Part shown: piece by piece, positions 1-41,732 of the stretch
Layout: each line of letters starts with the position of its first letter
Position numbering within the stretch: the first letter of the stretch is position 1
IMG/VR virus record: IMGVR_UViG_3300020213_000048
Coordinates: 1-41,732 of that record
Reading direction: 5' to 3' (one strand)
Origin: a virus
Length of the DNA stretch: 41,732 bases
Notes under the pieces: model-generated
Told to the model about the DNA's origin: nothing
The model's input: only the letters and a program-made list of their open reading frames with translations
Database searches by the model: none
Translations under genes and position numbers: made by a program

Positions 1-399
1 GGAGCTGGGGTCGGCGGAGCGGAGGTCGGCGTAGCGGAGGTTGGCGGAGCTGAGGTCGGCGGAGCTGAGGTCGGCGGAGCGGAGGTCGGCGTAGCAGAGG
101 TCGGCGTAGCAGAGGTCGGCGGAGCGGAGGTTGGCGGAGCGGAGGTCGGCGGAGCGGAGGTCGGCGTAGCTGAAGTCGGCGGAGCTGAGGTCGGCGGAGC
201 TGAGGTCGGCGGAGCTGAAGTCGGCGGAGCTGAGGTCGGCGGAGCTGAGGTCGGCGGAGCTGAGGTCGGCGGAGCGGAGGTCGGCGGAGCGGAGGTCGGC
301 GTTTGCCCGTGCCGCCTCCTGAACCGCTGCTCGAACATCCTGTGCATTCTCGGCTGTGTAAAGAACACTTCTGTCAAACCTGTTCTTAATTTCAATCAC
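1..399 (-). CDS. Pentapeptide-repeat protein, N-terminal part (cut by window end)
   Basis: Starts at GTG 399 with GGAGAG seven bases upstream; the ORF is open through base 1 (133 codons). A short leader (VIEIKNRFDRSV...) precedes about 20 five-residue units of the type A(D/N)L(R/S)(S/Y), encoded by a 15-bp DNA repeat. Pentapeptide repeats fold into a right-handed quadrilateral beta-helix; some such proteins mimic DNA, but nothing here shows that function. The gene has no stop in this piece. Its C-terminal part is at 41095-41732, so the gene spans the window ends. Phase requires about 7 bases plus a multiple of 15 to be missing at the junction. Last proximal units are almost identical, which explains a short-read assembly break. 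It lies 53 bp downstream of the resolvase-like gene in the leftward operon. Confidence 0.9.
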   Translation of the reverse strand, partial: MIEIKNRFDRSVLYTAENAQDVRAAVQEAARANADLRSADLRSADLSSADLSSADLSSADFSSADLSSADLSSADFSYADLRSADLRSANLRSADLCYADLCYADLRSADLSSADLSSANLRYADLRSADPSS

Positions 400-452
400 T
401 TTGTCTCTCCTGCTGTGTAAATATCAGGGGTTTGTTTTCTTTTTGGCCTTGC

Positions 453-812
453 TCACGCTGCGACCTTTAAACTGCGTAGTTCTTCAAGCTCAGCTAGGTA
501 GCCCCAATAGTCAGCGGCGCGAACCGTCACCATCCATTCAGTGTTATTGCGACGGTGCATGACTATCGCCGTCTTGCTTGGAGGGCAGTCATCGCAAGCC
601 TGCCGCCAAGCCTTAGGCAGGTTCAAAGCCTCGACGCGCTTGATTTCGATGTGATGGTCGCGAACGATGCCGTCCTCAAGCGTTTGTACGTCACCTTTGA
701 ATTCCATGCCTCCCGACAATGGTGTCCTGCGTAACTTGGTGCCGGTAATGGAGCGAATAAGGTCCGCAGCTTCGCGTTCGCCGCTAGCTCCTTTGGTGCG
801 TGACTTCTTCAC
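453..812 (-). CDS. Holliday-junction-resolvase-like PD-(D/E)XK nuclease
   Basis: 119 aa. The pattern KGASGEREAADL near the N-terminus, then RRTPLSGG, a GDV aspartate and HIEIKR is the order of motifs seen in archaeal/phage Hjc-type resolvases: conserved E, an R-x-x-SG turn, the metal-binding D, then E-x-K. The predicted role is a metal-dependent nuclease acting on branched DNA in the cytoplasm during recombination or before packaging. The start ATG overlaps the stop of the upstream gene by 4 bases (ATGA), so translation is probably coupled. Family assignment is from motifs only; a more general VRR-NUC-like or other restriction-fold nuclease is possible. Confidence 0.7.
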   Translation of the reverse strand: MKKSRTKGASGEREAADLIRSITGTKLRRTPLSGGMEFKGDVQTLEDGIVRDHHIEIKRVEALNLPKAWRQACDDCPPSKTAIVMHRRNNTEWMVTVRAADYWGYLAELEELRSLKVAA

Positions 813-1153
813 AATTCTCTCTGCATCCGTAAGAGGGATTGACCGATTCCTACTCTTGTCTCTAACACCCTGATCGCAGCCTTAGCGGCTTCGTAATCGG
901 ACTCGGCTACTACGAGGGTCTTGTAGGACTCCTTGTTGTAAAGCTCCACTACTGTCTTGTTGTCTAGGTCTGTTTGGGTCAGCTTCTCTGAAGACATTTT
1001 GAACCGTAGACGTTCTTGGGCGAACTCGTATTCGTAGTCACGCTTTGCCCTGAAGTAAGAACGTGCGCTTGACTCAATGTCGTTCATGCGGTCGGCAAGG
1101 TCTGTGTCTATGTCTGCAAGGGTTTGGGCGATGGAGCCTGGGTCAGTCTTCAT
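809..1153 (-). CDS. Conserved-looking phage protein, coiled-coil
   Basis: 114 aa from the ATG at 1153, chosen because it overlaps the upstream stop as ATGA like the neighbouring junctions. A longer reading frame to 1228 exists but would run into the upstream gene. The protein is charged and mainly helical, rich in A, E, D, R and L, with heptad-like stretches through much of its length. There is no recognisable catalytic motif, signal peptide or membrane segment. It sits between a small unknown protein and a resolvase-like nuclease, so it may serve the recombination module, but that is context only. Confidence 0.65.
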   Translation of the reverse strand: MKTDPGSIAQTLADIDTDLADRMNDIESSARSYFRAKRDYEYEFAQERLRFKMSSEKLTQTDLDNKTVVELYNKESYKTLVVAESDYEAAKAAIRVLETRVGIGQSLLRMQREL

Positions 1154-1386
1154 CTGTGCATCCGGCTCATCCAAGGTTTCTTGTAGCTGCGGAAGAACTC
1201 GCCCATGTGCAAGTCGTGAGTCGTGCAAAACCGATCAAAGCTCTCAAGCGTGGCCGTAGCGTTAGCGCGGCGACGGTGATACCAACGCTGGGCGGTCTCG
1301 TCCATGCGCTTTCCGTTGCAGTAAGTCTTTCCATCCATGTAGGGGCGAAGCCAAGCGACGATCATCTTGGGATTCAAGTTCTTCAC
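1150..1386 (-). CDS. Small basic hypothetical protein
   Basis: 78 aa, rich in R, K, W and H (for example QRWYHRRRANATATL). Coupled at both ends by ATGA overlaps with its neighbours, which is the main support for it being a gene. No domain is recognised. Its basic, aromatic character is compatible with nucleic-acid binding, but there is no motif to claim it. Confidence 0.6.
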   Translation of the reverse strand: MKNLNPKMIVAWLRPYMDGKTYCNGKRMDETAQRWYHRRRANATATLESFDRFCTTHDLHMGEFFRSYKKPWMSRMHR

Positions 1387-1586
1387 GCCACTTCAAGAGA
1401 GTAGAAGTCGTTTAGCTGTGAGAGCAGCATCCGCCCGACGTTGGTGGGAAGCTCCAAGAGCATCACTGTCTCGAAAGAGAGAATGTCTTCGGGATTCGAC
1501 TCGTCAAAGCGAACGTCATTGAACTCAAGCTGGACGTAAGGGCCTTCGGTGTCTCTCACGACGGCCTCGTTAGCAAACCGTGTCAT
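1383..1586 (-). CDS. Small acidic hypothetical protein
   Basis: 67 aa, acidic, with alternating hydrophobic stretches (YVQLEFNDVRF, VMLLELPTNVGRMLL) suggesting a small mixed alpha/beta fold. ATGA overlap with the RecB-like nuclease gene upstream and with the next gene downstream. No family recognised; it could be an accessory factor to the nuclease next door, on position alone. Confidence 0.6.
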   Translation of the reverse strand: MTRFANEAVVRDTEGPYVQLEFNDVRFDESNPEDILSFETVMLLELPTNVGRMLLSQLNDFYSLEVA

Positions 1587-2395
1587 GCTGCCACCTTCTG
1601 CGTCCTTGACTCCAGTTCTTTGAGCCGGTTGTGAAGGTCAAGGGTTGCGAGAAAGTCGCCAGGGGTTGCGCTGCCTTGGACGGGATGTGGCTCGCCCTTC
1701 ATATCTAGGCCGATAATCCACTTCTCATCTATCTCGATGCCGTAGCTCTCGTACAGGGCGAGTTCATACCCCGCGGCTTGTAGGTGGGCTTTGGTGTAGA
1801 CCACCCCCTTCTTAGAGGTCTTGTAGTCGATCAGGCAACGCTTACCGTCAATCGTGCAAAGTCCGTCGAAGGTCCCGGCGAAGCGATGCTCCTTAGAGGC
1901 CACAACTATTTCCGAGTGGGTGAACTTGGGCTTGGCGAACTTGACCCATTTCTTTAGCGCACGTACATAGCCCATGTGTTCGGCCGGGACTGTGACCTCG
2001 GGGAACTTCCCCTCTTTGACATAACGCTCGGCTATGTCGTGAATAGCTGTACCTCTGTTGGCAGCCGATTCGCGGTTGTGGTTGACCGTTAGCTTTGAAG
2101 CCGTCAGGGCCTTTTGCAGTTTGTCGTCATCGGCTTTGATGAGCCACATAAAGAAATCCTCGGGCGTGTCACGCTCAAGCCTTGCGAGTTGCTTTACGCC
2201 TCTCGCCCCTACCTTCTGGCCGTACCAGGACGCCACTCCAAACAGAGAACCGTCATTCGCTGCATCGACAATCGTTGAAATGGAATCCACCTTCACCGGA
2301 TCAGGCGGGAAGTAATACTCATGGCGTGGGTTCTTGTAGAACTCAACCGTCAGTCCCGAAGGTAGTTCGTGAATGGTGCTTACACTGCGCGCCAT
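1583..2395 (-). CDS. RecB/Cas4-like PD-(D/E)XK nuclease
   Basis: 270 aa. The C-terminal half carries the RecB-type signature in order: GTAIHDIAERY (His119), E162, FAGTFDGL (Asp177), LIDYKTSK (Asp190, Lys192) and QAAGYELA (Gln206...Tyr210). These are the metal-binding and catalytic residues of RecB/Cas4/lambda-exonuclease-like enzymes. The expected role is DNA end processing for recombination or replication, acting with the SSB-like protein encoded upstream. A GGAGGG ribosome site lies eight bases before ATG 2395. It overlaps the upstream winged-helix gene by 16 bp. No RecT/Erf annealase was recognised in the operon. Confidence 0.85.
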   Translation of the reverse strand: MARSVSTIHELPSGLTVEFYKNPRHEYYFPPDPVKVDSISTIVDAANDGSLFGVASWYGQKVGARGVKQLARLERDTPEDFFMWLIKADDDKLQKALTASKLTVNHNRESAANRGTAIHDIAERYVKEGKFPEVTVPAEHMGYVRALKKWVKFAKPKFTHSEIVVASKEHRFAGTFDGLCTIDGKRCLIDYKTSKKGVVYTKAHLQAAGYELALYESYGIEIDEKWIIGLDMKGEPHPVQGSATPGDFLATLDLHNRLKELESRTQKVAA

Positions 2396-3320: not shown

Positions 3321-3353
3321 AGAGCCTCAAACGCACTTTCATCTCGTCGGTGT

Positions 3354-4020: not shown

Positions 4021-4028
4021 GGCGCTCT

Positions 4029-7946: not shown

Positions 7947-8441
7947 ATGCCCGCAGAGCTTGAGCGCAAGCAGGCAAATCAGCCCGGAACGGAAACACTC
8001 GAAGCTCTGACCTGCCTAGCCCACTTTGGCGGCAGCTTTACCAGGGCCAGTGCGGAACTAGACATCCCGACCTCAACCCTCTTTGATTGGAAAGCCAAGT
8101 ACCCAGACGTCTACACCGGCATAGCCCAGAGACTCGCAGGGCAGACAATCGCCCGCACTACTACTGAATCGAGAGAGCTGACTCTCAATGCTTTTAAGGC
8201 CGCTTCTGAATCAGTAGATGAATACCGGACCAAGCTGGAAGCCAAGGAGATTAAGGACCCAGCAGGCGGCGGATTGAGGATGGCGACGATAGGCGGGATT
8301 GCTTATGACAAGACGGCATTGGCAGATAGTCGCCCGACAAGTATCAACGTACAAGTCAGTCCTAAGGAATTAGTAGAGAGTCTGCGTAAGAGGCTTTCCC
8401 ATGCGCCAGAGAGTGTGAAGGATGAAGGATTGCCCCAATGA
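7947..8441 (+). CDS. terS: Terminase small subunit (probable)
   Basis: 164 aa, ATG 7947 preceded by AGGAACGGA. The N-terminal part FGGSFTRASAELDIPTSTLF-DWKAKYPD is a helix-turn-helix of the kind used by small terminase subunits to recognise the packaging site. A helical middle region (about 60-110) fits the oligomerisation core. It would load DNA onto the large terminase. The large subunit lies about 1.5 kb downstream rather than adjacent, which is unusual. Assignment is by motif and position; a transposase-like HTH protein is the alternative. Confidence 0.65.
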   Translation: MPAELERKQANQPGTETLEALTCLAHFGGSFTRASAELDIPTSTLFDWKAKYPDVYTGIAQRLAGQTIARTTTESRELTLNAFKAASESVDEYRTKLEAKEIKDPAGGGLRMATIGGIAYDKTALADSRPTSINVQVSPKELVESLRKRLSHAPESVKDEGLPQ

Positions 8442-8538: not shown

Positions 8539-8745
8539 GGCGTGATTGCGTTGCGTGAGTGATAGATAGATGGCGTGATTGATAGGTAGGTAGCGTTGCG
8601 TGCGTTGCGTGCGTTGCGTGATAGGTGGCGTGAGTGAGTGCGTGATAGGTAGGTAGGTGCGTGCGTTGCGTGATTGATAGACAGGTAGCGTTGCGTGATA
8701 GATGGCGTGATAGATAGGTGGCGTGATAGATAGACAGGTCCGCAT
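8539..8745. repeat. Degenerate GCGTTGCGTGAT / GATAGATAGG repeat block
   Basis: About 200 bases built from interspersed GCGTTGCGTG, GCGTGAT, GATAGATAG and GGTAGGTAG words, repeated many times in irregular order. Shortly after the block CATCACGCAAGCGC (from about 8743) is complementary to its GCGTTGCGTGAT words, so transcripts could fold back. Could be iteron-like protein sites or foreign simple-sequence DNA. Confidence 0.75.
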
Positions 8746-8784
8746 CACGCAAGCGCCTTCTTAAACAGGCGCAGGCGCACAGGC

Positions 8785-8854
8785 ACAGGCGCATGGGTAC
8801 AGGCGCATGGGCACAGGCGCATGGGCACAGGCGCGCAGGCGCATGGGCACAGGC
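8785..8854. repeat. 14-bp tandem repeat ACAGGCGCATGGGC
   Basis: Three consecutive copies at 8785-8826 (the first ends in T), then an interrupted copy to about 8854. Period 14. Confidence 0.8.
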
Positions 8855-8866
8855 AGCAGGCACCAT

Positions 8867-8908
8867 GCCTACATGCGTACGCCTACATGTGTACGCCTAC
8901 ATGTGTAC
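8867..8908. repeat. 14-bp tandem repeat GCCTACATGTGTAC
   Basis: Three adjacent copies, the first differing by one base (GCCTACATGCGTAC). Same 14-bp period as the preceding unrelated array. Confidence 0.85.
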
Positions 8909-9149
8909 GTACATAGCTATCACCCCAATCATCACCCCATACTCTGCACATTAGGCTTGTGCAAGCGCAGTGTGAGAGGCCAGGCAGGCCTGTAATCCCC
9001 GAATGCAGCAGGCAGAGGCAGGCGATCAGGGTCAGGCCACGGGAGGCGGGAGTGTGGGCGGCCGCCGGCGTGGGTGTATATGTATATAGGTCAGGGCACA
9101 CGCAAATCCCCAGAAAGGGTTCCGAAGCCCCGAAACGGACCCAGCCCTA

Positions 9150-9197
9150 AAAGGGGCTTGCGGTATGTTCTCGGTACATATGCGGTATAGTGCTGCT
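9150..9197 (+). promoter_or_regulatory. Leaderless promoter with repeated CGGTA sites
   Basis: TATAGT at 9186-9191 lies six bases before the ATG at 9198, the spacing expected for a leaderless actinobacterial-type transcript. Three CGGTA(T/C) words occur across 9163-9188 (for example GCGGTATG, CGGTACAT, GCGGTATA) and are plausible operator half-sites for the ribbon-helix-helix protein encoded just downstream. No consensus -35 was found. Confidence 0.5.
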
Positions 9198-9467
9198 ATG
9201 CCCAAGACCTCGATCTACTTCACAGAATCCGAGCTTGCGTGGCTTCGCCAAGAGGCTGAGGGCCAAGAGGCTGAGGGCCAGTCCGTGTCTGGGTACATCC
9301 GCAAGGTCATCTTCAACGACATGCTCAAGCTGGAAAAGAACGCACAAGCTGAGATCAACGAGAACGCACAAGCTGAAGTTGACCTCCACGCCATGCTCAA
9401 GCTGGAAAAGCAAGTCCAAAACCTTGAACGCCGCATGGGTCTGATCGAAGACCTCGCCAACAGGTAG
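9198..9467 (+). CDS. Ribbon-helix-helix (CopG-like) protein with coiled-coil tail
   Basis: 89 aa from ATG 9198. MPKTSIYFTESELAWLRQEA, then SVSGYIRKVI, is a ribbon-helix-helix pattern: a beta strand followed by two helices, normally a dimer that binds DNA through the paired strands. The rest is a heptad-like tail with two tandem duplications: EAEGQ twice (15-bp unit) and NAQAE(I/V)(N/D) twice (24-bp unit), plus MLKLEK twice. Flanked by repeats on both sides, so it could be an autoregulator or a centromere/iteron-binding protein; no ParA was seen. Longer start at 9165 is not needed. Confidence 0.7.
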   Translation: MPKTSIYFTESELAWLRQEAEGQEAEGQSVSGYIRKVIFNDMLKLEKNAQAEINENAQAEVDLHAMLKLEKQVQNLERRMGLIEDLANR

Positions 9468-9472
9468 ATACG

Positions 9473-9513
9473 CGGTACTAGGACGCCCCAGGCCGGTACT
9501 AGGACGCCCCAGG
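9473..9513. repeat. 21-bp direct repeat, two copies
   Basis: CGGTACTAGGACGCCCCAGG occurs at 9473-9492 and 9494-9513 with a one-base C spacer. It begins with the same CGGTA word found upstream of the ribbon-helix-helix gene, so it may also be a binding site for that protein. Confidence 0.8.
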
Positions 9514-9525
9514 CGTTCTCTAGGG

Positions 9526-9589
9526 CGGCTACTAGCCAACAAACGGCTACTAGCCAACAAACGGCCCCTAGCCAACAAACGGCCCCTGG
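9526..9589. repeat. 18-bp tandem repeat, about 3.5 copies
   Basis: CGGCTACTAGCCAACAAA at 9526-9543 and 9544-9561, a variant CGGCCCCTAGCCAACAAA at 9562-9579, then a partial copy. Period 18. Confidence 0.85.
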
Positions 9590-9740
9590 TCTTGATGGAC
9601 TCTCACGCGAGAGAGAAAGTCAAAAGCCGGGGCTAGGCACCACCACCCTTTCAGCGGCCTCCTTCTAACTCGCTGAGCCAATAGAGGTTCGAAAATGTAC
9701 GTCCTGCGGGGGTAGGTGGTGTCTTCATCTGAAAGGAACA

Positions 9741-9920
9741 ATGCGACCACCCGACCCACCCCACCGCTTCAAACACATGAGACGAACCAAGAAACTCCTC
9801 AAAGACCTTGGACTAAACCAAGAAGGCCTTGGACTAACCCAAGCCCGCTCTGGACTAACCCAAGCCCGCTCTGGAAAGCGTCCAAACACAACCCCCTCGT
9901 ACCAAAGGCACGGGAGTTAA
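9741..9920 (+). CDS. Small basic ORF in frame with terminase
   Basis: 59 aa from ATG 9741, with AAAGGA three bases upstream. Basic and polar, with three 7-residue units (GLNQEGL, GLTQARS, GLTQARS) encoded by 21-bp repeats at 9810-9872. It ends at TAA 9918-9920, and the next codon in the same frame begins the large-terminase reading frame. It is either an independent small protein whose termination is coupled to terminase initiation, or a terminase leader separated by a stop. No family recognised. Confidence 0.45.
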   Translation: MRPPDPPHRFKHMRRTKKLLKDLGLNQEGLGLTQARSGLTQARSGKRPNTTPSYQRHGS

Positions 9921-11438
9921 CTGGCCGCTAGCCTCACCGCTTGCGAGCTTGAAGCTCTAGAGCACTACATCGAAGAGAATCCCAAAGACGTTGCCGCCCA
10001 ACAAGAACTAGCCCAGCTCAATGCAATCTACGAAGACAACCCGCTCCATTTTTTCGAACCGCATAAAAAACAAGCCACCTTTTACGAGGCAGGGCGGATT
10101 GCATTCAAGATGTTTGCCGGGGGTACGCAGAGCGGCAAGACGCTTGGCGGGATCGTTGACGACATCATCCAATGTTGTGACGAAGATGCCATCCCCGAAC
10201 ACCTCAAGCCCTTCAAGTATTGGCAGCCACCTTTTAAGTGCCGCGTTGTAACACCCTCCTTCGGACACACCCTCGATCAGTTCCAAGAAAAAGTCAGAGA
10301 CTGGGTGCCAAGGCACCAACTCAAAGGGGGAAGATGGGAGTCGGCCTACTCCCGTTCTGACTACACACTTCACTTTGAAAACGATTCCTATATTCAGTTT
10401 CTCTCGGGGGACCAGGACGTTTCCAAACACGCCGGTTGGACGGGTGACAGGGTTCACTTCGATGAAGAACCGCCTGGCGATCACGGTCGCAAGCTCTACA
10501 TCGAGAACAAAGCTCGTGTAGCCGTAAGAGAGGGTCAAGTCATGTTCACCATGACTCCCACCGAAGGAATCACTTGGACCGGCGATGAGGTTTGGGAAAA
10601 GCGCGGGGAGCCGAACTACTTCGGCATCCAGGTTGACATGGACGACAACCCCACTCTCACCGAAAATGCCAAGCAGATTGTTCTGGATGGGCTTTCCAAG
10701 GAAGAACGCGCTGCTAGGAAGTCAGGTGAGTTCGTCTACCTCAAGGGAAAGGTCTACCCCGAGTTCGACTACGACCTTCATGTAGTTCAAACGCCGGACC
10801 CAGAACACGTTAATAGCCAAGACGTAATTATTTGCATCGACCCCGGCCTAACAATGACTGCGGTCACATGGACTTGCTTCGACTCAGACAACATCGCTCT
10901 GGTCTTCGATGAGCTTTACACAGAAAACACGAACATCGAAACGATTACGCAACAGATCAAAACCATGAACCACATGTGGAAGATCAAAGATCCGTACTAC
11001 ATCATCGACCCCACAAGCCAAAACAGAAGCCAGGCGACTAGCTCTACAGACATGGTTGGCATAGATCAGGTCTTTTTCCAGCACGACATATTCCCCATCT
11101 ATGCACACAACGACGTAGACCCCGGCATCTTCCAGATAAAGCGAAGGCTTCAGTCTGATCCGCCTGCCTTGCTCGTTTCCGAAGACTGCTCAAAACTTTT
11201 GTGGGAACTAAAGCGATACCGCTACCACGAAATAGACACCCCATCAGGGCGAAAGATCGTCCCGGTTAAAAAGGACGACCACGGCCCAGATTGCATTAGG
11301 TACACCTGCGCAGAACGCTTTTGGGGCGTCGAGCCGGATTTCAAAAAGCGCAGAAAGCAATCTACTTACGGCTTCCAGGTTCCCTACAAAGAAGAACGGT
11401 TCTACCAGGAGGTAGGGCCAATGGGGGCCATGTCATAA
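9921..11438 (+). CDS. terL: Terminase large subunit
   Basis: About 505 aa if started at CTG 9921. No ATG, GTG or TTG exists in frame between the upstream TAA and ATG 10110, which lies only three residues before Walker A and is too late. GGGAG precedes CTG 9921 by four bases. Walker A is GGTQSGKT (about residues 67-74), Walker B RVHFDEE (about 177-183). The RNase-H-fold nuclease is marked by the aspartates in ICIDPGLT, YIIDPT and HGPDCIRY. It is the ATP-driven motor that pumps DNA through the portal and cuts it, probably headful given the P22-like portal. Confidence 0.9.
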   Translation: MAASLTACELEALEHYIEENPKDVAAQQELAQLNAIYEDNPLHFFEPHKKQATFYEAGRIAFKMFAGGTQSGKTLGGIVDDIIQCCDEDAIPEHLKPFKYWQPPFKCRVVTPSFGHTLDQFQEKVRDWVPRHQLKGGRWESAYSRSDYTLHFENDSYIQFLSGDQDVSKHAGWTGDRVHFDEEPPGDHGRKLYIENKARVAVREGQVMFTMTPTEGITWTGDEVWEKRGEPNYFGIQVDMDDNPTLTENAKQIVLDGLSKEERAARKSGEFVYLKGKVYPEFDYDLHVVQTPDPEHVNSQDVIICIDPGLTMTAVTWTCFDSDNIALVFDELYTENTNIETITQQIKTMNHMWKIKDPYYIIDPTSQNRSQATSSTDMVGIDQVFFQHDIFPIYAHNDVDPGIFQIKRRLQSDPPALLVSEDCSKLLWELKRYRYHEIDTPSGRKIVPVKKDDHGPDCIRYTCAERFWGVEPDFKKRRKQSTYGFQVPYKEERFYQEVGPMGAMS

Positions 11439-14369: not shown

Positions 14370-14644
14370 TGGAGATTCTGCTTGGTGTTTCAATCATTGC
14401 CAACGTCGGTTTCGGCTACATGCTTTTGCGGCTGAACCAGGACGCAGCCATAGAACGTCAGTCCATTCTCGCCGAAGTCCAAGCAGAGCGGGTGGCGCTT
14501 TTGAACAGAATCCAAGCTCCCGAAGCAGCGGTGGCTATTTCGATGGACGATGACTCCGGGCTTTTGAATACGAAATGGGAAGACGACCAGGACTTCAACA
14601 ACTCCATCGAAGCCATTGAGAACCTAGAAAAGAAGCTTGGCTGA
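14369..14644 (+). CDS. Small membrane-anchored protein
   Basis: 91 aa from ATG 14369, overlapping the previous stop as TAATG. An N-terminal hydrophobic span (ILLGVSIIANVGFGYMLL) is followed by a helical region (AAIERQSILAEVQAERVALL) and an acidic C-terminus. Its stop overlaps the portal start. A short anchored coil beside the portal is unusual; it may help localise assembly at the membrane, or be a spanin-like or otherwise unrelated small protein. Confidence 0.6.
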   Translation: MEILLGVSIIANVGFGYMLLRLNQDAAIERQSILAEVQAERVALLNRIQAPEAAVAISMDDDSGLLNTKWEDDQDFNNSIEAIENLEKKLG

Positions 14645-17424: not shown

Positions 17425-18654
17425 ATGAGCGCAACGCTCGCGGCATACAACGCCGTCTTGAGGCGGGTCGATACCGGCTCGCTGGTAAAGCAGTATTTCA
17501 CGGACGATGAAATGCTGAAGAAAATCCTCACCACGAAGAAGTACGACCACGGTGAGGTAGTCCGAGTCCCCCTACACACTTCCCGCAACGGCGGGTACAC
17601 GCCCCTTCCTGAAGGTGGCGGGAACCTAAACGACGCAGGAAACCAGGGAACCGACAAGGCAGAGTACAAAAAGGCCAACCACCACTACCAGGTTGCCATC
17701 CAGGGTGACGTCATTGACAGCACCGAAGGTGATGCCAAGGCGATTGCCCAGGCGACAACGACGGAGCTTGACGGAGCGATGGACGACATTCGCTTCCAGA
17801 TTTCCCGTCAGTGTTTCCAAAACGGAGAGGCAATCCTGGCAAGGGCAGGGACGACCACGACCTCAAACATCGTCCACTTGACTCCTACTGCGTCAGCGCA
17901 GTACACAAGTGGAACCAACGCCATTGAGCGTGGGTGGATTTACGAGGGCATGGAAGTAGACATTGGTACGGCTTCCTCGGAAGCCTCCCTTGTAGACGGA
18001 GAGGTTGTTACGGCGATTGACGAAACTCTGACCGATCCCACGATCACGGTTTCAACGTCGATCACCACGACCACATCCAACTACGTGTCGTTCAAGAACG
18101 CTCGTAGCGGTGCAACCTCAAATGAGGGGAATGGATTCCGCAACATCGTTTCCCAGTCTTCAACACTGGCTGGGTTGACGGTCGCAGGACAGCCGCGCTG
18201 GAAGGCGGCATATGAGTCCTCAACGCCCACCGCTCTCACCCTGGCTGTTCTTTTGAACATGGACCGCAAGATTCACCAAAAGACCGGCAAGAAGGCTGAT
18301 GTGATTTTCACGGGCCTAAAGCAGGAGCAGAAGTTCTATGAGCTACTTCAGCAGCAGGTTCGCTACAACAACGATAAAGGCATCGAAGCCGGAAATCAGG
18401 AAGTCGCAAGGTGGCGCTCCAAGGATGTAATCGGCCACCCCAACTGCCACGACGAAGACCTCTACATGGGATTGTGGAAGCACATCTTCATCGCGCAGGG
18501 CAAGGACCCCTACTGGCAGAACGCAATCACGGGTTCTAAGAACGCATGGGACCATATACAGGGGACAGACTCCTACGGTGGAAAGCTCACCTGGCGTGTA
18601 AACCTCTGTACCGACCGTCGCCAGGCGTTCGCGGCCGAGAAAGCACTGACGTAG
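17425..18654 (+). CDS. Major capsid protein
   Basis: 409 aa, ATG 17425 with TAGGAG upstream. N-terminal helices then an E-loop/P-domain pattern (GEVVRVPLHTSRNGGYTPLP, QVAIQGDVIDSTEGDAKAIA), a variable T-rich insertion at about 150-215 and a C-terminal half with a helical spine (RKIHQKTGKKADVIFTGLKQ) and KLTWRVNLCTDRRQAFAAEK, consistent with HK97-fold coat proteins of the P22/podovirus-like type. It forms the icosahedral shell. A terminator-like hairpin follows immediately. Confidence 0.85.
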   Translation: MSATLAAYNAVLRRVDTGSLVKQYFTDDEMLKKILTTKKYDHGEVVRVPLHTSRNGGYTPLPEGGGNLNDAGNQGTDKAEYKKANHHYQVAIQGDVIDSTEGDAKAIAQATTTELDGAMDDIRFQISRQCFQNGEAILARAGTTTTSNIVHLTPTASAQYTSGTNAIERGWIYEGMEVDIGTASSEASLVDGEVVTAIDETLTDPTITVSTSITTTTSNYVSFKNARSGATSNEGNGFRNIVSQSSTLAGLTVAGQPRWKAAYESSTPTALTLAVLLNMDRKIHQKTGKKADVIFTGLKQEQKFYELLQQQVRYNNDKGIEAGNQEVARWRSKDVIGHPNCHDEDLYMGLWKHIFIAQGKDPYWQNAITGSKNAWDHIQGTDSYGGKLTWRVNLCTDRRQAFAAEKALT

Positions 18655-28745: not shown

Positions 28746-31700
28746 GTGCCGATCACAGACCCTCCTAAGCGACCCGTAGGGAGCAGGCCAAAAAGCGGCT
28801 ATCCCCAACGCGCTCCCAAACGCAAGGAAACATCACCAATCGGCCCCTGGCGCTCGGAGAGCGAAGAAAACAGCAGGCAGAAAGCGCGACGGAAGGAAGC
28901 GCGATGGGACAAACGCAATCTCAAGGCAGAGAAGGAAGCGCGACGGGAGGAAGCGCGATGGGACAAACGCTATCCCAAGGCAGAGAAGGAAGCGCGACGG
29001 GAGGAAGCGCGATGGGACAAACGCTATCTCAAGCGTGAAGCAAGCCGTGAGGCCGGAAGCCGAGTTGGGCTGGCCATACGCAACATAGCCACCACCCCAA
29101 GGGTTAGGAAGTTTGAATCCGAGAAGGTGCATACCTTCGGTCGAGCGGTAGCGGGGATAGAGCGAAGCACCCCTCTCAAGCGCAGCGAAGCACGAGAGTA
29201 TGTGCGGGAGGTAGTAAGACAAGTTCCGCAGCGTGAGCTTGTAAGGCATCCCCGAAGGTACTTCCCCGGCTACAAGACACCGAGAACGACCAAGCTCGAT
29301 GTTGACTTGAAGAAGGGCCAAGTCTTTTCCGACACACGCCCCGCCGAACAACGCTATGCGCGAAAGCTCTCAGCAGATGTTCGCAAAAGCGTCCGCCCAC
29401 CCAAGTTTCCCCAAGCCGGTCAAATCTCGGCAACGAAAGCTCTAGAGCTAGAGAAAACAAAGAAAACAGAGAAAACCCTCACCGACGAACAAATAAAACT
29501 TATGACCGATCCTGTGATGGAAGATATCAAGGCCTTGAAGCCTTACACCACCCCGCTCGGGCATGGCTCAAAGGGTCAGAAGTTTCTTGAGACTGTGCTT
29601 AACGTTGCTTCCATCGCGGTTCCCGTAACGAAGCTCGCCTTAATACCCAAGGGAGTAAAGGCAGCCAAGGCTGTCGTAGCCGCAGGTGGAACCAAGGCAG
29701 TCGCCAAAGCAGCGGGCAAGAAAACAGTGGTAAGCGTCAAGTCCTACCCCGCCCGCAAGGCGAGGCGCGTCAAGTCCTACCCCGCCCGCAAGGCGAGGCG
29801 CGTCAAGACTTATCCCAAGCGTAAGGTCGCTCAAGCGAAAGCCGCGCCAGGACGTATCAAGGCTTCTCCTGCAACTGCTAAACGCGCCGCCAAGACTCCG
29901 CTCAAAACCACTGGGCGGATAGCCAAGAGGGCGCTTCGCCATCCGATCAAAGCAACGGGGCTGGGCTACGCTGGTGCCTCCCCCGTCATTGCTGCTTCTG
30001 GGACCGTTCCCGACGCTCCCCTAGAGCTTGCCAAAGCCCAGGCTTCAGAAGCCGTGAATCATCCAGGGCGCTATATCCGTAGGTCCGGTGCGTTCGTCCC
30101 CGGCGCGGCCACAGGGGCGGTGTCTTTGGCGCTAAACCTTGGTGCCGCTCCCTTCACAAAGGGCGAGTCGGCTAAACGCGCTTTTGAAGAACTGGTTGCT
30201 TCCAACAAAGAGTTCGCTGGCTATCTGTCGTCTGACCCGAAAAAGCAGAAGAAGCTCGCGGAAGAATACGGGCTTGGGCCTGCTGTTATCGCTGCGCTTC
30301 CTCTCGCTGCTAGGCGCTCTCGCAAACCGAAGACAGAACTGAAGAAAGCTGTAGACGCTAAGGGCAAGCCCGTTGAGGTTGTAGAAGTTCCAGCCTCTAA
30401 GAAGATCGCCAAGGGTCCAATCGGGCGCAGGCGTCAGAGGCTTCGCATGACTCGCAACGTCACCCACGCAAGCAATGAGGGTCAATCCAAGATAGCTCGC
30501 GCTCAGAAGCGGCTTCACAAGAAATCCACCTACTCAAAGCTAGACGATCAGCACAAACGCGCAGCAATCTTTTTGACAGATGCCAGGGTCGCTACCAAGA
30601 ACGTCGCCCAAGCAAAGAAGGACCTTGAGCAGATTGCAAGTCGTGGGGAGAAAACACCGGGCACAGACCCCCACACAGCTTCATGGCTACTTGAGCGCAT
30701 TGAAAAAGACCCCAGCTACTTAAAGACTTCGGGGATCGACGCGGGACGGACTGAATACGCAGGCCAGGTCGGGCGGCTTGATCCCCGTTTGATGGACGAG
30801 AGGGCGCAACAAGTTCGGCGTGAAGCCCCTCACATGCAAGAGAAGGGATTCAAGACTCCTCTCCAATCCAAGCAGAAACAGGTCAAGATAGCTGGCAAGG
30901 AAGTAGGCGAAACTTACGTTGCCGCGAAGGCAGCACGGGTTCAGCAGGGACGGCGATTGGGGGTTCCTCCCGCTGAAGCTGACCGTTTACGCAGGGCGCT
31001 TGCTAAGGCAGAAGAAGCCCAAAAGCCGGTGTCGCCCCAAGCGCAAGACGCCTTTTTAGAGCAGGCAGCCGCCATCCGTAAAACCGAAGGCCGGGACGAC
31101 CCCTCCTACTCCAAGCAGACCCCGCTCACCGCCCTAGAGCAAGCAGAACTACGGGATATGGCTCCAAGCGGCAGGGGATTCCAGTCAGTCGGCACACGAC
31201 TTCGTAAGCGCACCGGCAAGACCCAGGAAAAGGGAACCCGCGCAATAGACATAACGACCGCTGAGCACGCCGACATAGTTGCCCCGCGCCACCGCAACAC
31301 GCTTCTCAAGCTCACCGACGCGCTTTCTCAGGAACGCCATGTTCTGACCAAAGCCGAAGTGGAAGCAATCGGGGACGCGGGGACCAAGTTCCGGCCCAAC
31401 CAAAACCGCGGATCGCTCACCCCCCAACAGGCTAGGGCCGCTCTCGATGCTGGCGTTTTTGATTCTAAGAACTGGACGTTCATGCCTGAGTCGAAGCGTC
31501 TGCGCGAAGAAGCCCTACAACGTCCAGGTGAACTGGCTGGCAAACTGGCCGAACCGGGGGCAAACCTCAATGCCTGGCTAGACACAGCAGAAGCCACTTG
31601 GGGCAAGGGGACCACGCTACAGGCCATCCCTCGCACACTTGCAGATGAATGGGTATCTCAAACAATCAGAGGCTCAGAAGTCCTAGGGAAGATCGCCAGA

Positions 31701-33227
31701 ACGTCGGGACGTACCCAGTCAGCGGCTCTTTTGGCACACAGCCCTTTCTGGATTCCCGCCGGGATCATCATTGAAGGCGGAACGGCTGCTGTGCAGGTAG
31801 CAGTTCATCGCTGGCCGGGGCTGGTCAAAGACATTTGGAAGATGACTGACGAGCAGAAAGCCAAGCTCGATGCTGACGGCGGACAAGCTGCTGCGCTTGG
31901 ACAGTTAGACGACTGGGGCAAGCGCCGCCAAAGCACAACTGACTTCGTGAAGGAAGGCGAGAAGCTACAGAAGGGATTTCTCCGCTCGCATTGGTACCGG
32001 CCAGTAACAGAGTTGTTTACAGGGGCTATCAAGATTGACCGTGCTAAGGGCCGACAGTTTCGGCGGATCGTCCAGTTCGGCACAGCAGTCAAGGCTGCGG
32101 ATTCGGTACGCAAGGCCGCAGGGCTCTCCAAGAACATCCCCCGTGCCAAGAAGTACGAATGGCTAGAGAAGCACCACCCCAAGGTTTTAAAGGAAGTCTC
32201 CGATAACACGACGGACATGATGGGCGATTGGTCCTCTGTCACTCGTAGCGGGAAGCTGGGCGGGGAACGTGCCTTTGCTACCGGGGGGCTTTTCTACGCA
32301 ATGGTTCGCTACACCACCCACTTTATCTTCTCTGCTTTCCCGCGCCAGCATCCGATTGTTGCTCCCGTTGTTTATGCGATTGGGATTCAGAACACCAAGC
32401 GGTTAGAGGAACTCCTTGGTGGCGATCCTGATTACTTGGCCCAGTTGATGCAGGCTCTCGTCTACACCAAGGGGGCTAACAAGCCTCCGCGTCCCGCTGA
32501 CATTTCAAGGATCGTTCCCGGCGGGAACCCCGCTCTTGAGCTTGGCCTATCGGCAAAGGCTCGTCCCAGTTCTGCGCTGAAGTTGGCCCAACCCATCCTC
32601 TCTACAGTTGGGCTTCCCGCCCTTGGGTTAGACCCGCAATCAGGCAGGCCAATCGTTCCCCCTGGCGCGACCGTAACTTCGTCAGGGAAGATTTTGCAAA
32701 AGGCAGGAACGGTAGAGGGGCTAACGAGTCGGCAGACCGTTAAGGCGATTCTAGGCTCGACACTTGGGCTGTCTTCTGGCGTAAGGCTCGCAGAGCAGCT
32801 AACCGGACGGACAGGACGCGGGATTGGACCCGGCGGGGAGTTGAACCTTCCCTTCACCAAGGCACCCAACTTTGATGAGAAGTTCCCATCGTCGGCCTTT
32901 TACAAAGCTGTCTTGCCTACAAGCGGCGAGCGGTTAAGGAAAGGGCTGGCTCCACCCCTTGTAACGCTTCCGCTTTGGAAGCAGCGGGCCCTACGCGAAT
33001 ACCAAGAGGCCAAGGTGAAGAAGGACTTTCTCGGCAACATCGACGTTCAGGATGGACAGATCATTCCCGATGAGTTGATAGGCAAGGTCAACAAGAAGCA
33101 ACTCACCAGGGGTCAAGCCCAACGTGCATATCGGGACGGAGTGAAGGCAATGGAGCGAATGGCAATCATGCAACGGGCGGCTAAGGCCGGAACCCTTCAA
33201 CGGCTCATGGAGAAGAAGATAAAGTAG
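28746..33227 (+). CDS. Large internal/ejection protein
   Basis: 1493 aa from GTG 28746, the largest gene. The N-terminal 100 residues contain three 18-residue units (EARWDKR..., 54-bp period, 28896-29045), and around residue 331 there are 11-residue VKSYPARKARR units (33-bp period, 29736-29834). A basic A/K-rich region, hydrophobic stretches near 400-470 and 995-1020 (PFWIPAGIIIEGGTAAVQVA) and long helical parts follow. This suits an ejection protein that inserts into the envelope to form a DNA channel, since the particle is short-tailed. No peptidase or transglycosylase motif was found inside it. Confidence 0.65.
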   Translation: MPITDPPKRPVGSRPKSGYPQRAPKRKETSPIGPWRSESEENSRQKARRKEARWDKRNLKAEKEARREEARWDKRYPKAEKEARREEARWDKRYLKREASREAGSRVGLAIRNIATTPRVRKFESEKVHTFGRAVAGIERSTPLKRSEAREYVREVVRQVPQRELVRHPRRYFPGYKTPRTTKLDVDLKKGQVFSDTRPAEQRYARKLSADVRKSVRPPKFPQAGQISATKALELEKTKKTEKTLTDEQIKLMTDPVMEDIKALKPYTTPLGHGSKGQKFLETVLNVASIAVPVTKLALIPKGVKAAKAVVAAGGTKAVAKAAGKKTVVSVKSYPARKARRVKSYPARKARRVKTYPKRKVAQAKAAPGRIKASPATAKRAAKTPLKTTGRIAKRALRHPIKATGLGYAGASPVIAASGTVPDAPLELAKAQASEAVNHPGRYIRRSGAFVPGAATGAVSLALNLGAAPFTKGESAKRAFEELVASNKEFAGYLSSDPKKQKKLAEEYGLGPAVIAALPLAARRSRKPKTELKKAVDAKGKPVEVVEVPASKKIAKGPIGRRRQRLRMTRNVTHASNEGQSKIARAQKRLHKKSTYSKLDDQHKRAAIFLTDARVATKNVAQAKKDLEQIASRGEKTPGTDPHTASWLLERIEKDPSYLKTSGIDAGRTEYAGQVGRLDPRLMDERAQQVRREAPHMQEKGFKTPLQSKQKQVKIAGKEVGETYVAAKAARVQQGRRLGVPPAEADRLRRALAKAEEAQKPVSPQAQDAFLEQAAAIRKTEGRDDPSYSKQTPLTALEQAELRDMAPSGRGFQSVGTRLRKRTGKTQEKGTRAIDITTAEHADIVAPRHRNTLLKLTDALSQERHVLTKAEVEAIGDAGTKFRPNQNRGSLTPQQARAALDAGVFDSKNWTFMPESKRLREEALQRPGELAGKLAEPGANLNAWLDTAEATWGKGTTLQAIPRTLADEWVSQTIRGSEVLGKIARTSGRTQSAALLAHSPFWIPAGIIIEGGTAAVQVAVHRWPGLVKDIWKMTDEQKAKLDADGGQAAALGQLDDWGKRRQSTTDFVKEGEKLQKGFLRSHWYRPVTELFTGAIKIDRAKGRQFRRIVQFGTAVKAADSVRKAAGLSKNIPRAKKYEWLEKHHPKVLKEVSDNTTDMMGDWSSVTRSGKLGGERAFATGGLFYAMVRYTTHFIFSAFPRQHPIVAPVVYAIGIQNTKRLEELLGGDPDYLAQLMQALVYTKGANKPPRPADISRIVPGGNPALELGLSAKARPSSALKLAQPILSTVGLPALGLDPQSGRPIVPPGATVTSSGKILQKAGTVEGLTSRQTVKAILGSTLGLSSGVRLAEQLTGRTGRGIGPGGELNLPFTKAPNFDEKFPSSAFYKAVLPTSGERLRKGLAPPLVTLPLWKQRALREYQEAKVKKDFLGNIDVQDGQIIPDELIGKVNKKQLTRGQAQRAYRDGVKAMERMAIMQRAAKAGTLQRLMEKKIK

Positions 33228-36623: not shown

Positions 36624-37676
36624 CTACCGCAAATGGACCACATTGTTGCCGGTGCGTTGGTCCGCTAATTGCATGATTCGGGCACTTGCTCGGTCAGTCG
36701 AAGGGTGGCCGTACAGCTTCTCGACCAAGGAGCCGTCCTCATGGCCCATCTGCAATCCGATGTCCCACGGCCGCGCCCCAAGCTCCAAGAGGTAGGTGGC
36801 GAAGAAGTGGCGGAGCATGTACCAACGACCCGCTTTGCCTTCAGGAAGCCCTGCCTTGGTGCGGACGATCTTCCAGTAGCGCCAATGGGTTTCAAAATTC
36901 AGCATCCCCCGCTGAGAGTTCCAAACATAGGGAGATGTGTCGAAAGGGGCGGTTGAGCGGATAGCTTCTTCTGCCTCGGGGAGCAAGGCAATGGTTCTCG
37001 GCTTCCCTCCCTTGCCGCCTTCAAGGATTTTCCCGGTACGCTCTAGTCGCCGTCGCACATATAGCTCGCTGCGTGGCACGTTCACATCTTCAAACATCAG
37101 AACAAGTTGCTCCTGTGGGCGCAAGCCGGTGTAAGCGGCGAACTCGATCATGTAGCCGAACTCGGGGAAGATTTCGTTCCCCCCGATTTCTGCCAGCCTC
37201 TGCACTACCTCGATCCGCTTGTCGGGGTCGGGTTCGTTGAAGGGAACGATCTTGGCTAAGCCGTGACTGCGCTTGATCTTGATTTTGTGAAATAGCTCGG
37301 GGTGATCCATCTCCTTGAGCATCAGCTTTACCGTTCGGGCGGCAGAAGTGTGTTTCGATACCCAGGCCCTTAGAAGGTCGGGCGATAGCTCATGTGGGTA
37401 GAGATGCCCGAAGGAGTCTGTGAAGACCTTGAGTCGGTGAGTGTTGCCGCTGTTCGTTACCGGAGAGGGTCGGGGGTGCTTCTCTAGCCATTGCTTCGCT
37501 AGGCCTTCTAGATTGGCCTTAGCCTCGGGCGGGGGTTCGTGGAGCATGATTGCCATGCGCGCTTGCTTTTTGGTGTCGAACTTCCCATCGGGACGGTCGG
37601 GGTTGCGGATCGTGACCTGTTTTCCGTCAACGTACTTGCGGGCGCGATAGCCGTTCTTAACTCGCTCGATTCCCAC
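36624..37676 (-). CDS. int: Tyrosine-type integrase
   Basis: 350 aa from GTG 37676, with AAAGGAGG six bases upstream. N-terminal arm-binding and core-binding regions (about 1-150) precede the catalytic domain. Active-site residues: Arg186 (YTGLRPQEQL), Lys225 in the beta-hairpin, Arg289 within WYMLRHFFAT, His312 (MGHEDGS) and Tyr322 (EKLYGHPS) as nucleophile. The usual first His of H-x-L-R-H is Tyr286 here, a known kind of variation. It catalyses site-specific integration and, with an excisionase, excision. Marks the phage as temperate. Confidence 0.92.
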   Translation of the reverse strand: MGIERVKNGYRARKYVDGKQVTIRNPDRPDGKFDTKKQARMAIMLHEPPPEAKANLEGLAKQWLEKHPRPSPVTNSGNTHRLKVFTDSFGHLYPHELSPDLLRAWVSKHTSAARTVKLMLKEMDHPELFHKIKIKRSHGLAKIVPFNEPDPDKRIEVVQRLAEIGGNEIFPEFGYMIEFAAYTGLRPQEQLVLMFEDVNVPRSELYVRRRLERTGKILEGGKGGKPRTIALLPEAEEAIRSTAPFDTSPYVWNSQRGMLNFETHWRYWKIVRTKAGLPEGKAGRWYMLRHFFATYLLELGARPWDIGLQMGHEDGSLVEKLYGHPSTDRASARIMQLADQRTGNNVVHLR

Positions 37677-38351: not shown

Positions 38352-38641
38352 GTGAGTTCCTTGGCATCGAGATCCTTGCGAAGCTCTGCGACGCACTCCG
38401 CCGCGAAGTCCGGCAGGGAAGGTTCTGTTGGGAACCCACCCGAGAGGTCTGCTCCTGAGAGTTCGCAGCAGCGGCGTAGGGCATCCTCGGCTCGTAGCAG
38501 TTTGACTCGCAACTCCCCCTGGGACGGCTCAAGGCCGTGTTTTGTAGCCAAGGTGGATGCGAGGGCGGTTGCTTCGCGATAGGAACTGCACCGTTTACAT
38601 CCGCAGTCGGGACTCGCAAGATTGTCGGGCGCAAGGATCAC
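38330..38641 (-). CDS. Hypothetical protein with Cys cluster
   Basis: 103 aa from GTG 38641, overlapping the upstream stop as GTGA. CGCKRC near the N-terminus and CC at about 58 could bind metal; helical, acidic C-terminal half (FAAECVAELRKDLDAKELTW). Position between the SA-repeat protein and the excisionase genes gives no firm clue to function. Confidence 0.55.
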   Translation of the reverse strand: MILAPDNLASPDCGCKRCSSYREATALASTLATKHGLEPSQGELRVKLLRAEDALRRCCELSGADLSGGFPTEPSLPDFAAECVAELRKDLDAKELTWESMER

Positions 38642-39912
38642 GCAGGTACCGGGAGGGCTTTAAGAGCATCCAGTAGCGCAGCCAACTCCGCCGACCACGC
38701 CGCCGACTCAGCAGCCGACCTAGCTGTCTGAGCAGCCGACTCAGCTGTCCAAGGAGCCGACCACGCCGCCGACCGAGCAGACCGAGCAGCCGACCCAGCT
38801 GCCCAAGCAGCCGACCGAGCCGACCGAGCAGCCGACTCCGCCGAATTTCGGCGATCTTCGTCGCCATCGCGAAGTGCCGCGATGACTTCCTCGATTGCCT
38901 CGGATACCTGGTCCGCGATGTTCTCCGGCCAGTTTGGTTTCAGCTCCAGTGTGCGCTCAAGGCGTTTGATCGACAGCTCGTCAGCCAGCTTTGAGAAATC
39001 AGCACCAACAGGGATCGCTTCTGCGAACCTGCGCGGCCAAGTCGTGGCCTCTTTCTCGGGTAGGCTCTCAAAGATTCGGTCCTCAAGGTAAGCCAGCCAA
39101 GCCGGTAGGCCCAGGCGCTCGGGGTAGAGCGCATGCATGTTGGAATTGATGACTTCCTTGGTGTCCCAGTCGTGCAGCGAACAGCCGACTGCGCACCCTC
39201 GAAAATGACCGTTCAACTCACCATAGGTGCCCTTGATGATCGCGTCTCTGCGTTCGTGTTCCCCGATCCGTTCGAGCAGCTTGTCCTTGATGGCTGGGTC
39301 GTCTTTGAACGCTAGGAGCGTCACGGGGTCCTTTCTAGTAGTTGGTCTGCTCGGGGTTGGGGCTTCAACTCCAGATTCTTGGACAGGTTTGGATGGATCT
39401 GGAGTTGAGTCCGAGCGTCCTTCTCTCTCCAGCTTTTCTAGATAGGCGTCTGCCGATTCGTGCAGACGCTTGACTGCGGGATCGCGCCGCGCTTCCTCGA
39501 ACTCGGCAGCGTCGATCTCGCAGAACACTTCTTCGTCTGGTTCTTGCTCGCTCTGCCTCTCTCCCGGCCCAGCTTCCTTCCTGATGGAGTCTGCGAGGTC
39601 GTGAAGTTCGTCGTAGGCGTCTTTTGCCCCCAGCAGTTGTTCTAGGAGGGACTCGACTTTGGTTACTCGAACCCGTCCGTTCAGTCTTTCCGCTTCGACT
39701 TGATACCGCTCAATTGTGATCGTTTCCACGAACCGCTGTAGCTTGTCCCGTTCCCGCTCGGCTTTCTTAGCTTGGGTGTTGGCTGCGCGGCACTGCTCAT
39801 TTGCCTTCCCGAGTTCAACCTGAAAGTAGTGTGCGTTGTCTCTCCAGTATTGCCAACGTTCGGGGTCTGGCCCCTCCCCCTTGAACGCTCGGAACATGGA
39901 AGCGAGGTTCAT
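38638..39912 (-). CDS. Large phage protein with coiled coil and SA-repeat tail
   Basis: 424 aa. Residues about 25-120 form a coiled coil (AKKAERERDKLQRFVETITI), followed by an acidic, P/S/T-rich linker. A conserved-looking domain (about 195-310) contains GHFRGCAVGCSLHDW and LPAWLAYLEDRIFESLPEKE, then WPRRFAEAIPVGAD. I recall this domain from other phage proteins without known function. The last 70 residues are S/A-rich repeats (SAARSARSAAWAAGSA-type, 38641-38840) predicted to form helices. ATGA overlap with the mini-gene upstream. Confidence 0.7.
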   Translation of the reverse strand: MNLASMFRAFKGEGPDPERWQYWRDNAHYFQVELGKANEQCRAANTQAKKAERERDKLQRFVETITIERYQVEAERLNGRVRVTKVESLLEQLLGAKDAYDELHDLADSIRKEAGPGERQSEQEPDEEVFCEIDAAEFEEARRDPAVKRLHESADAYLEKLEREGRSDSTPDPSKPVQESGVEAPTPSRPTTRKDPVTLLAFKDDPAIKDKLLERIGEHERRDAIIKGTYGELNGHFRGCAVGCSLHDWDTKEVINSNMHALYPERLGLPAWLAYLEDRIFESLPEKEATTWPRRFAEAIPVGADFSKLADELSIKRLERTLELKPNWPENIADQVSEAIEEVIAALRDGDEDRRNSAESAARSARSAAWAAGSAARSARSAAWSAPWTAESAAQTARSAAESAAWSAELAALLDALKALPVPA

Positions 39913-40177: not shown

Positions 40178-40192
40178 TCCTTCTCCATCCAT

Positions 40193-40852
40193 CTAGCTAT
40201 TCACCCTCTCCTGTCTCTTGCGCGGGGGCTTGATCCTGAAGTCGTCTTGCTTGAGTTTCACCACAATGCGCTTTCCCCGGCGGTCAAAGAGGGGTTCGAT
40301 GGGACGCGCCACGATGCCCTCGGCCACGCGTTCCGCTTGCGCATGAGGACTCTTGAAGCCGTCCCGAACCTGGGCGACAATCTCCTTGAGCGTCCACTGC
40401 CCGAGAATCGGCACGCGGGGGATTTCCAACTTCTCGGCAATCTCTGTGACCGCTTCATCTAGCAGCCACCACTCGCCCACCTTTACGTCAAAGAGGATGA
40501 AACCTTTATCCTCGCGGTAGTCGCCGCCGTTCTGTATCCCGGCTCCGTAGCCCTCTCCGTAGAGCGCGATCGGCACTGGCTCGTCGTCTAGACGCAGGGC
40601 ACGCATGTTGTCCTGCGTGAATGTCTCTTGAAGGTGGCGATAAAGGTCGCTGTGAATCTGGGCGTTGTCTGTACGTCCACCGAAGCGCACCTGATCGTCC
40701 TCGGCCAGCGCTACCCGGATGTTGGTGCCGTCGATCTTCTCCGTGACGGTCCAGGGGTCGATTGTTCCGTAAACCGGGTTGCGAAGTTGATCGGTGAGGT
40801 TGAAGTCCTCGTCCCGCAAGAACAGCGTTTCAATCTTGTGATACGGCTCCAT
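40193..40852 (-). CDS. RNA ligase (nucleotidyltransferase)
   Basis: 219 aa from ATG 40852 (TGATG overlap; a GTG one codon earlier is possible). Motif I EKIDGTN has Lys39 as the AMP-accepting residue. Motif III is ALYGEGYG (Glu100), IIIa FILFDV, motif IV AEGIV (Glu178) and motif V VVKLKQ (Lys199/201). These define the covalent nucleotidyltransferase superfamily, and the short length with no OB domain fits phage Rnl2-like RNA ligases. It would seal RNA nicks, for example tRNAs or other RNAs cut by host defences. DNA ligase is less likely given the length and motif spacing. Confidence 0.8.
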   Translation of the reverse strand: MEPYHKIETLFLRDEDFNLTDQLRNPVYGTIDPWTVTEKIDGTNIRVALAEDDQVRFGGRTDNAQIHSDLYRHLQETFTQDNMRALRLDDEPVPIALYGEGYGAGIQNGGDYREDKGFILFDVKVGEWWLLDEAVTEIAEKLEIPRVPILGQWTLKEIVAQVRDGFKSPHAQAERVAEGIVARPIEPLFDRRGKRIVVKLKQDDFRIKPPRKRQERVNS

Positions 40853-41094
40853 CACTCTCCTGTCTGTGTAGGTGGGAGGGACTCAAGGTTCTTTGCCTCT
40901 TTCCACTCAGCGAACTCCCGCTCTACGGCTTCAAGTTCGGTTACGGCGCGTACCTTCACCGCGTCTTGCTCGGTTAGGAACCCATCGCACTGCGAGTTCG
41001 GGCAAGGCATTGAGTGAAGCATCCCGGTCGCTATGCCGTCCGTCGCGTAGTCGTTGCACTTCGAGCAAACCCAAATCACCCACTGCTCGCTCAT
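40852..41094 (-). CDS. Small zinc-ribbon protein
   Basis: 80 aa, ATG 41094 one base after the pentapeptide gene's stop. WVCSKCND and MPCPNSQCDG supply two cysteine pairs for a zinc ribbon; the rest is a charged helix (AVTELEAVEREFAEWKEAKN). Lies between the pentapeptide and RNA ligase genes in the leftward operon. Confidence 0.6.
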   Translation of the reverse strand: MSEQWVIWVCSKCNDYATDGIATGMLHSMPCPNSQCDGFLTEQDAVKVRAVTELEAVEREFAEWKEAKNLESLPPTQTGE

Positions 41095-41732
41095 TCAGGC
41101 TCCCTCAGGTGCTGGGACCAGGATGTCTCCTGTGTCGCGCCCGTCTGAGTCGATTCCGTAATCCTCGGGCTTCAGTTCTTTGACCACCTTGCACTTGTGA
41201 ACCCGGAACTTTCCATCGGTTGCGTACGGAATACAGGCAATGTCTTCCTTGGTGAACTCGCAGAGCAGGAGTCGAAAGCCGGGATAAAACGCAGCGAGAC
41301 ACCAGGGCAGAGTCGCGAGGCTGATTCCTGCTCCGCATTGGCTTGACTCGCCTGTGTTGGCCTTGGCTTCGTAGCTTTGGCCGACTTTGTATTGGATGCC
41401 GCCGTTAAACGGGCCGTAGCCGTCTTTGGTGACGATTTTGTAGGCCCTGATCATTCCCGGTTGGTCTAAGAGGATTCGTAGGTCGTCCACGCGGTTGAAG
41501 TTGACGTTCTCGGCGTAGCGGAAGTCGGCGGAGCTGAGGTTGGCGTAGCGGAAGTCGGCGGAGCTGAGGTCGGCGGAGCTGAGGTCGGCGGAGCGGAGGT
41601 TGGCGTAGCGGAGGTCGGCGGAGCGGAGGTCGGCGGAGCGGAGGTCGGCGGAGCTGAGGTTGGCGTAGCGGAGGTCGGCGTAGCGGAGGTCGGCGCAGCT
41701 GAGGTCGGCGGAGCGGAGGTCGGCGTAGCGGA
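41095..41732 (-). CDS. Pentapeptide-repeat protein, C-terminal part with globular domain
   Basis: Continuation of the gene at 1-399: about 15 pentapeptide units (41505-41732) run into YAENVNFNRVDDLRILLDQP and then a globular C-terminal domain of about 130 aa. Its features (IRAYKIVTKDGYGPFNGG, CGAGISLATLPWCLA, LLLCEFTKEDIACIP, FRVHKCKVV) match a domain often found at the end of phage pentapeptide proteins, which I recall as DUF7666; function unknown. The stop TGA is followed by the next gene's ATG. With the other part the protein would be at least about 347 residues. Confidence 0.88.
   Translation of the reverse strand, partial: RYADLRSADLSCADLRYADLRYANLSSADLRSADLRSADLRYANLRSADLSSADLSSADFRYANLSSADFRYAENVNFNRVDDLRILLDQPGMIRAYKIVTKDGYGPFNGGIQYKVGQSYEAKANTGESSQCGAGISLATLPWCLAAFYPGFRLLLCEFTKEDIACIPYATDGKFRVHKCKVVKELKPEDYGIDSDGRDTGDILVPAPEGA

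Follow-up and report, generated by a model that had tools for sequence, protein, structure and literature searches.

Few functions are known for pentapeptide-repeat proteins (PMC8145042), and a marine metagenome yielded such proteins 26 times more often from long reads than from assemblies (PMC9238414). The phage considered here shares a colinear set of terminase, portal and head genes with Arthrobacter phage Jasmine, Microbacterium phage Shocker and Cellulosimicrobium phage DS1. Its endolysin gene is also colinear with that of Jasmine, and one of its tail genes with that of Shocker. In both Jasmine and Shocker, a resolvase and an exonuclease are encoded together on the minus strand, in a single block behind the lysis genes, and their order is that of the present sequence.

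This sequence is the IMG/VR record IMGVR_UViG_3300020213_000048, analysed over its whole length of 41,732 bp (hereafter the window) and carrying part of a pentapeptide-repeat gene at each of its two ends. The window very probably corresponds to the nearly complete genome of a temperate phage whose map is circular; a short-read assembler would have opened it within a single gene.

Gene layout of the window

The genes that define the general organization of the window are the following.

453-812, minus strand: RusA-like / PDDEXK resolvase, upstream of the pentapeptide start (phrog_244, E 2.9e-22; PF24608)
1583-2395, minus strand: PD-(D/E)XK exonuclease of the leftward block (phrog_298, E 1.5e-34)
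10110-36095, plus strand: virion and lysis block (terminase, portal, major head protein, tail, endolysin/transglycosylase)
10110-11438, plus strand: terminase, in the virion block
14637-16649, plus strand: portal, in the virion block
17425-18654, plus strand: head protein, in the virion block
36624-37676, minus strand: tyrosine integrase (phrog_1, E 1.6e-35; PF00589, E 2.3e-12)
40193-40855, minus strand: RNA ligase, used as the right-arm synteny marker (PF09414, E 2.2e-21)

The virion block is flanked by minus-strand genes, with the integrase, the RNA ligase and the array gene on its right and the resolvase, the exonuclease and others on its left. The phage is temperate as judged by its tyrosine integrase, and an actinobacterial host can reasonably be inferred from the colinearity with phages of Arthrobacter, Microbacterium and Cellulosimicrobium. 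No tRNA or RNA family was found in the window. Among its ORFs, the PHROGs and Pfam profiles recognised neither a DNA polymerase or replicative helicase nor any host gene.

A number of other loci are repetitive or variable. Comparison of the head protein to viral contigs retrieved two contigs of the same phage, L083 and L084, which bear other IMG/VR dataset numbers and cover positions 7302-28484 only. The region 8550-9880, located between the ORF at 7947-8441 and the terminase gene, contains many short tandem repeats with differing units (GCGTTGCGT/GATAGATA, ACAGGCACAGGCGC, CCTACATGTGTACG, CGGCTACTAGCCAACAAA and TGGACTAACCCAAGCCCGCTC), as well as a small ORF (9165-9467) with weak similarity to NikA-like DNA-binding proteins; it is a possible replication origin or packaging region. 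The numbers of repeat units at 8573-9543 differ between the window and L084, which points to fast length change. Further repeats comprise a 111-bp direct repeat (24698-24944) in the tail fibre gene 24355-26289, a 54-bp repeat in 2.8 copies (28882-29033) in the gene 28746-33227, whose 1493-aa product matches nothing in PHROGs or Pfam, and several overlapping repeats of 21 to 54 bp at the 3' end (38678-38838) of a 424-aa ORF (38638-39912). The protein encoded at 22118-22735 is 89% identical between the window and L083/L084, as compared to 97.6-100% for its neighbours, and is possibly the product of a fast-changing virion gene. The ORF at 4574-4942 matches an RNase H-like domain (PF13456) at the cut-off (21.7 versus 21.6 bits).

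The two half-genes and the phase of their ends

The extremities of the window carry the features listed below.

1-399, minus strand: 5' part of the pentapeptide-repeat gene (PF00805, E 7.5e-26), open at base 1
1-301, no strand assigned: left portion of the 15-bp tandem array (TRF, 20.1 copies, period 15)
40852-41094, minus strand: 80-aa ORF, 0 bp from the pentapeptide stop and overlapping the RNA ligase gene by 4 bp
41095-41732, minus strand: 3' part of the pentapeptide gene (PF00805, E 2.9e-19), stop at 41095
41510-41732, no strand assigned: right portion of the 15-bp tandem array (TRF, 14.9 copies, period 15)

As already reported in the preliminary description of this DNA, a start-bearing half on the left and a stop-bearing half on the right, both on the minus strand, are read in the sequence. 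The left half begins with a GTG start at 399, preceded by an AGGAGAG ribosome-binding site. Its frame, followed on the minus strand from 399 to 1, consists of VIEIKNRFDRSVLYTAENAQDVRAAVQEAARAN and then of 20 units A(D/N)(L/F)(R/S/C)(S/Y), the N-terminal cap before the array amounting to about 33 aa. The frame of the right half, followed from 41730 to 41095, contains RY, 14 units, one degenerate unit and a C-terminal domain of about 130 aa before the stop. The 20 and 14 contiguous units score 89.8 and 68.7 bits against PF00805, for a cut-off of 20.2, and on the coding strand this family is present at the two ends of the window only. The 3' half, the 80-aa ORF and the RNA ligase gene form one leftward operon. 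No base separates the pentapeptide stop from the next gene, so the upstream part that is missing lies in this same operon, beyond the contig end.

The last bases of the window (...gtagcgga) and the first (ggagctgggg...) are in register solely if 7+15n bases lie between them. The length previously proposed for the missing segment therefore agrees with the phase of the 15-bp units, and the predicted protein comprises at least 347 residues (133 + 3 + 211, n = 0). An overlap of the two ends would measure 8+15n bases; every length from 10 to 400 was tested and gave no exact in-phase match, the best in-phase overlaps being 8 bp with 3 mismatches, 23 bp with 3 and 38 bp with 2. As none of these is exact, a terminal redundancy hidden in the repeat was ruled out. 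This agrees with the class 'linear' assigned to the record in IMG/VR, i.e. without end repeats. The identical direct repeat at both ends by which complete circular contigs are recognised is absent; the halves at the ends do have their counterpart in a single uninterrupted gene of a relative, the ORF of contig L030 described below.

The 'linear' class would also suit true physical genome ends at this location, or a prophage piece cut by chance in two arrays. Ends within a reading frame would however destroy the gene, and the window is devoid of tRNA and of recognisable host genes. Furthermore, the probability that two random cuts both fall inside these 524 bp is about 1.6e-4. The placement of the ends is therefore not a matter of chance and would reflect repeats halting the assembly, and an origin of the ends in physical termini or in chance cuts is very improbable.

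The preliminary description attributed both halves to a single gene broken on a circular map, on the basis of the location of the start and stop and of the joinable frames. A single gene is still the best explanation and is backed by the relatives, but the original argument is weak. A minus-strand gene cut at the left edge of a contig keeps its start and one cut at the right edge keeps its stop, which makes this placement automatic. Moreover, the A-D-L frame fixes the phase and the 15-bp unit is divisible by 3, so that any two pentapeptide genes joined in register stay in frame. Neither property can separate one gene from two. Unit identity was also considered as a proof of one gene, with values of 0.895 across the ends versus 0.905 and 0.886 within each array. 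It was dropped upon comparison with a two-gene control, E. coli phage P64441, whose two separate array ORFs give the same pattern (0.808 between versus 0.815 and 0.803 within).

Gene order in relatives

The RNA ligase served as the synteny marker, with 80 related loci kept. The contig L030 (IMGVR_UViG_3300021420_000065), which bears another IMG/VR dataset number, contains an N-terminal cap, 16 units and a C-terminal domain in one intact ORF. The identity between L030 and the right half of the window is 52-56% (56% over 197 aa), and the window and the intact L030 protein can also be aligned in their N-terminal caps. An RNA ligase gene is located 2.9 kb downstream of this ORF on the same strand. 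In L068, a homologue of the left-end resolvase lies 1.1 kb upstream of the RNA ligase, and in L020, a homologue of the left-end exonuclease lies 3.7 kb upstream of it, in both cases on the same strand. Pairwise values were used for these two homologues, the iterative E-values being inflated by iteration on the hit itself. A left-end gene located upstream of the right-end ligase on one strand is the order predicted by a circular join. The relatives being distant, the weight of this synteny is moderate; it draws on three of them (29-58% identity), each with only one marker besides the ligase.

The two halves could alternatively belong to two different minus-strand pentapeptide genes, the window being then a fragment and the gap holding other genes, for instance a replication module. 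Such an arrangement has a precedent in the two array ORFs with mutually similar units of E. coli phage P64441. The polymerase and helicase genes present in Jasmine-like phages were not recognised in the window, and the genomes of the relatives reach 45.4-46.7 kb. Against these points, a single array ORF is present in 7 of the 8 array-bearing records surveyed, P64441 being the one with two array genes, and the same cap and C-terminal domain are found within one protein in L030. The resolvase of L068 is just 1.1 kb away from the RNA ligase, and a temperate phage may be served by the replication proteins of its host. We grant this two-gene arrangement a small chance.

Further searches addressed the junction and the relatives directly. 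Exact probes from both ends and an array probe retrieved no contig or genome crossing the junction. Searches for relatives with the exonuclease, with the C-terminal domain and, in genomes, with the head protein returned none or L030 alone. The C-terminal domain had no match in phage and plasmid records, and P0001 had none in phage records, probably owing to the low-complexity filter.

The genome had also been described as circular or circularly permuted. Its circular map is supported by the relatives, but permutation is not singled out by such a map, which fits headful permutation, cohesive ends, concatemers and an excised prophage circle alike. A terminase gene is found in the window, and circular permutation would need the packaging type beyond the presence of this gene.

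Origin of the break and comparison with known systems

With one gene on a circular map as the preferred reading, the pentapeptide gene would be part of a leftward early operon (exonuclease - resolvase - pentapeptide protein - RNA ligase - ... integrase) and would encode a long pentapeptide beta-helix between an N-terminal cap and a DUF7666-like C-terminal domain. The 15-bp units would be too alike for the middle of the array to be resolved, or the number of units would vary in the population, and the assembler would have stopped on both sides, leaving 7+15n bases unassembled. The two half-genes, their phase, the lack of an overlap and the one-protein architecture in a relative are observed; the union of the halves in one gene, a gap made of array alone, short reads and the assembly graph as the cause are deductions. 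The 'assembly collapse' previously invoked is inaccurate: the contig contains two distinct flanks of the array, whereas a collapse would yield one joined, shortened array. Instead, the array was interrupted and its central part stayed out of the assembly.

The longest exact internal repeat is 51 bp in the left array and 33 bp in the right one, and the longest exact match between the two is 47 bp. Exact repeats of up to 51 bp should be resolvable at the usual k-mer sizes of assemblers. The missing middle is therefore probably a longer identical run or a strain-variable segment, and the missing part is probably longer than 7 bp. The phase would permit a contig complete except for 7 bp (n = 0) and halted by low coverage instead of a repeat, in keeping with the lack of exact repeats above 51 bp in the assembled arrays. 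An assembler with k above 51 should however have closed such an array, and low coverage is unlikely to have stopped both ends at neighbouring points, which makes this explanation hardly credible.

Other contig ends also fall in or near repeats. L083, a 99.7% identical contig of the same phage, has its first base within a 21-bp repeat at 9857, and the end of L084 falls 39 bp before the 111-bp repeat at 24698. G004 (IMGVR_UViG_3300014838_000065; L127 1-180) starts in the middle of a pentapeptide array; it was rejected as a second contig split in one array, its far end lying in a different gene, and is an example of a break only. Comparison of the window to L084 revealed length differences of a whole unit or more in other arrays, with indels of 90, 16, 14 and 18 bp at 8573, 8817, 8867 and 9526. 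This variation between strains favours a strain-variable middle of the pentapeptide array. It is conceivable, although doubtful, that the gene contains an unusually long array of variable length (well over 35 units) whose unit number differs between phages of one population. The assembly break would then be the trace of a real size polymorphism in a beta-helix protein.

The sole consequence of the break is that the contig does not fix the true length of the gene; it is otherwise, in all likelihood, an ordinary effect of short-read assembly. The record can be used as a circular-map phage genome that is nearly complete, not as a fragment, and annotating its pentapeptide gene as two proteins would be an error. 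Contig ends consisting of the two halves of one repeat gene constitute a signal of completeness which is missed by end-repeat tests.

Sequence matches to solved pentapeptide proteins were found, and an AlphaFold2 model of the L030 relative places, with modest confidence, one strand per five residues along the array (block pLDDT 74-89 there, mean 66.9 overall). The C-terminal domain would be at most a relative of DUF7666 (PF24703) as judged from profile scores, the curated cut-off of 27 being reached neither by the right half (25.2 bits) nor by L030 (19.4 bits). The pentapeptide repeats alone do not indicate a function for the protein.

As in MfpA and Qnr, pentapeptide repeats are present and a right-handed beta-helix is expected, quadrilateral in the PF00805 superfamily; unlike them, the window protein has an extra C-terminal domain and shows no sign of gyrase binding. 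L030 shares with the window the succession of N-terminal cap, array and DUF7666-like C-terminal domain in one ORF and the same-strand RNA ligase downstream. It differs by its 16 units versus at least 35 in the window, with a unit identity of 72%, and by its codon set (GCG..TCT versus GCC..TCC). Jasmine and Shocker display the same terminase-portal-head block followed by a leftward block with resolvase and exonuclease, but they lack a pentapeptide gene, possess polymerase and helicase genes and are only remotely similar at the protein level. The break itself resembles those described in assembled viral metagenomes, where pentapeptide arrays fragment or vanish (PMC9238414), with the difference that both flanks of the array are kept here as the ends of one nearly complete contig.
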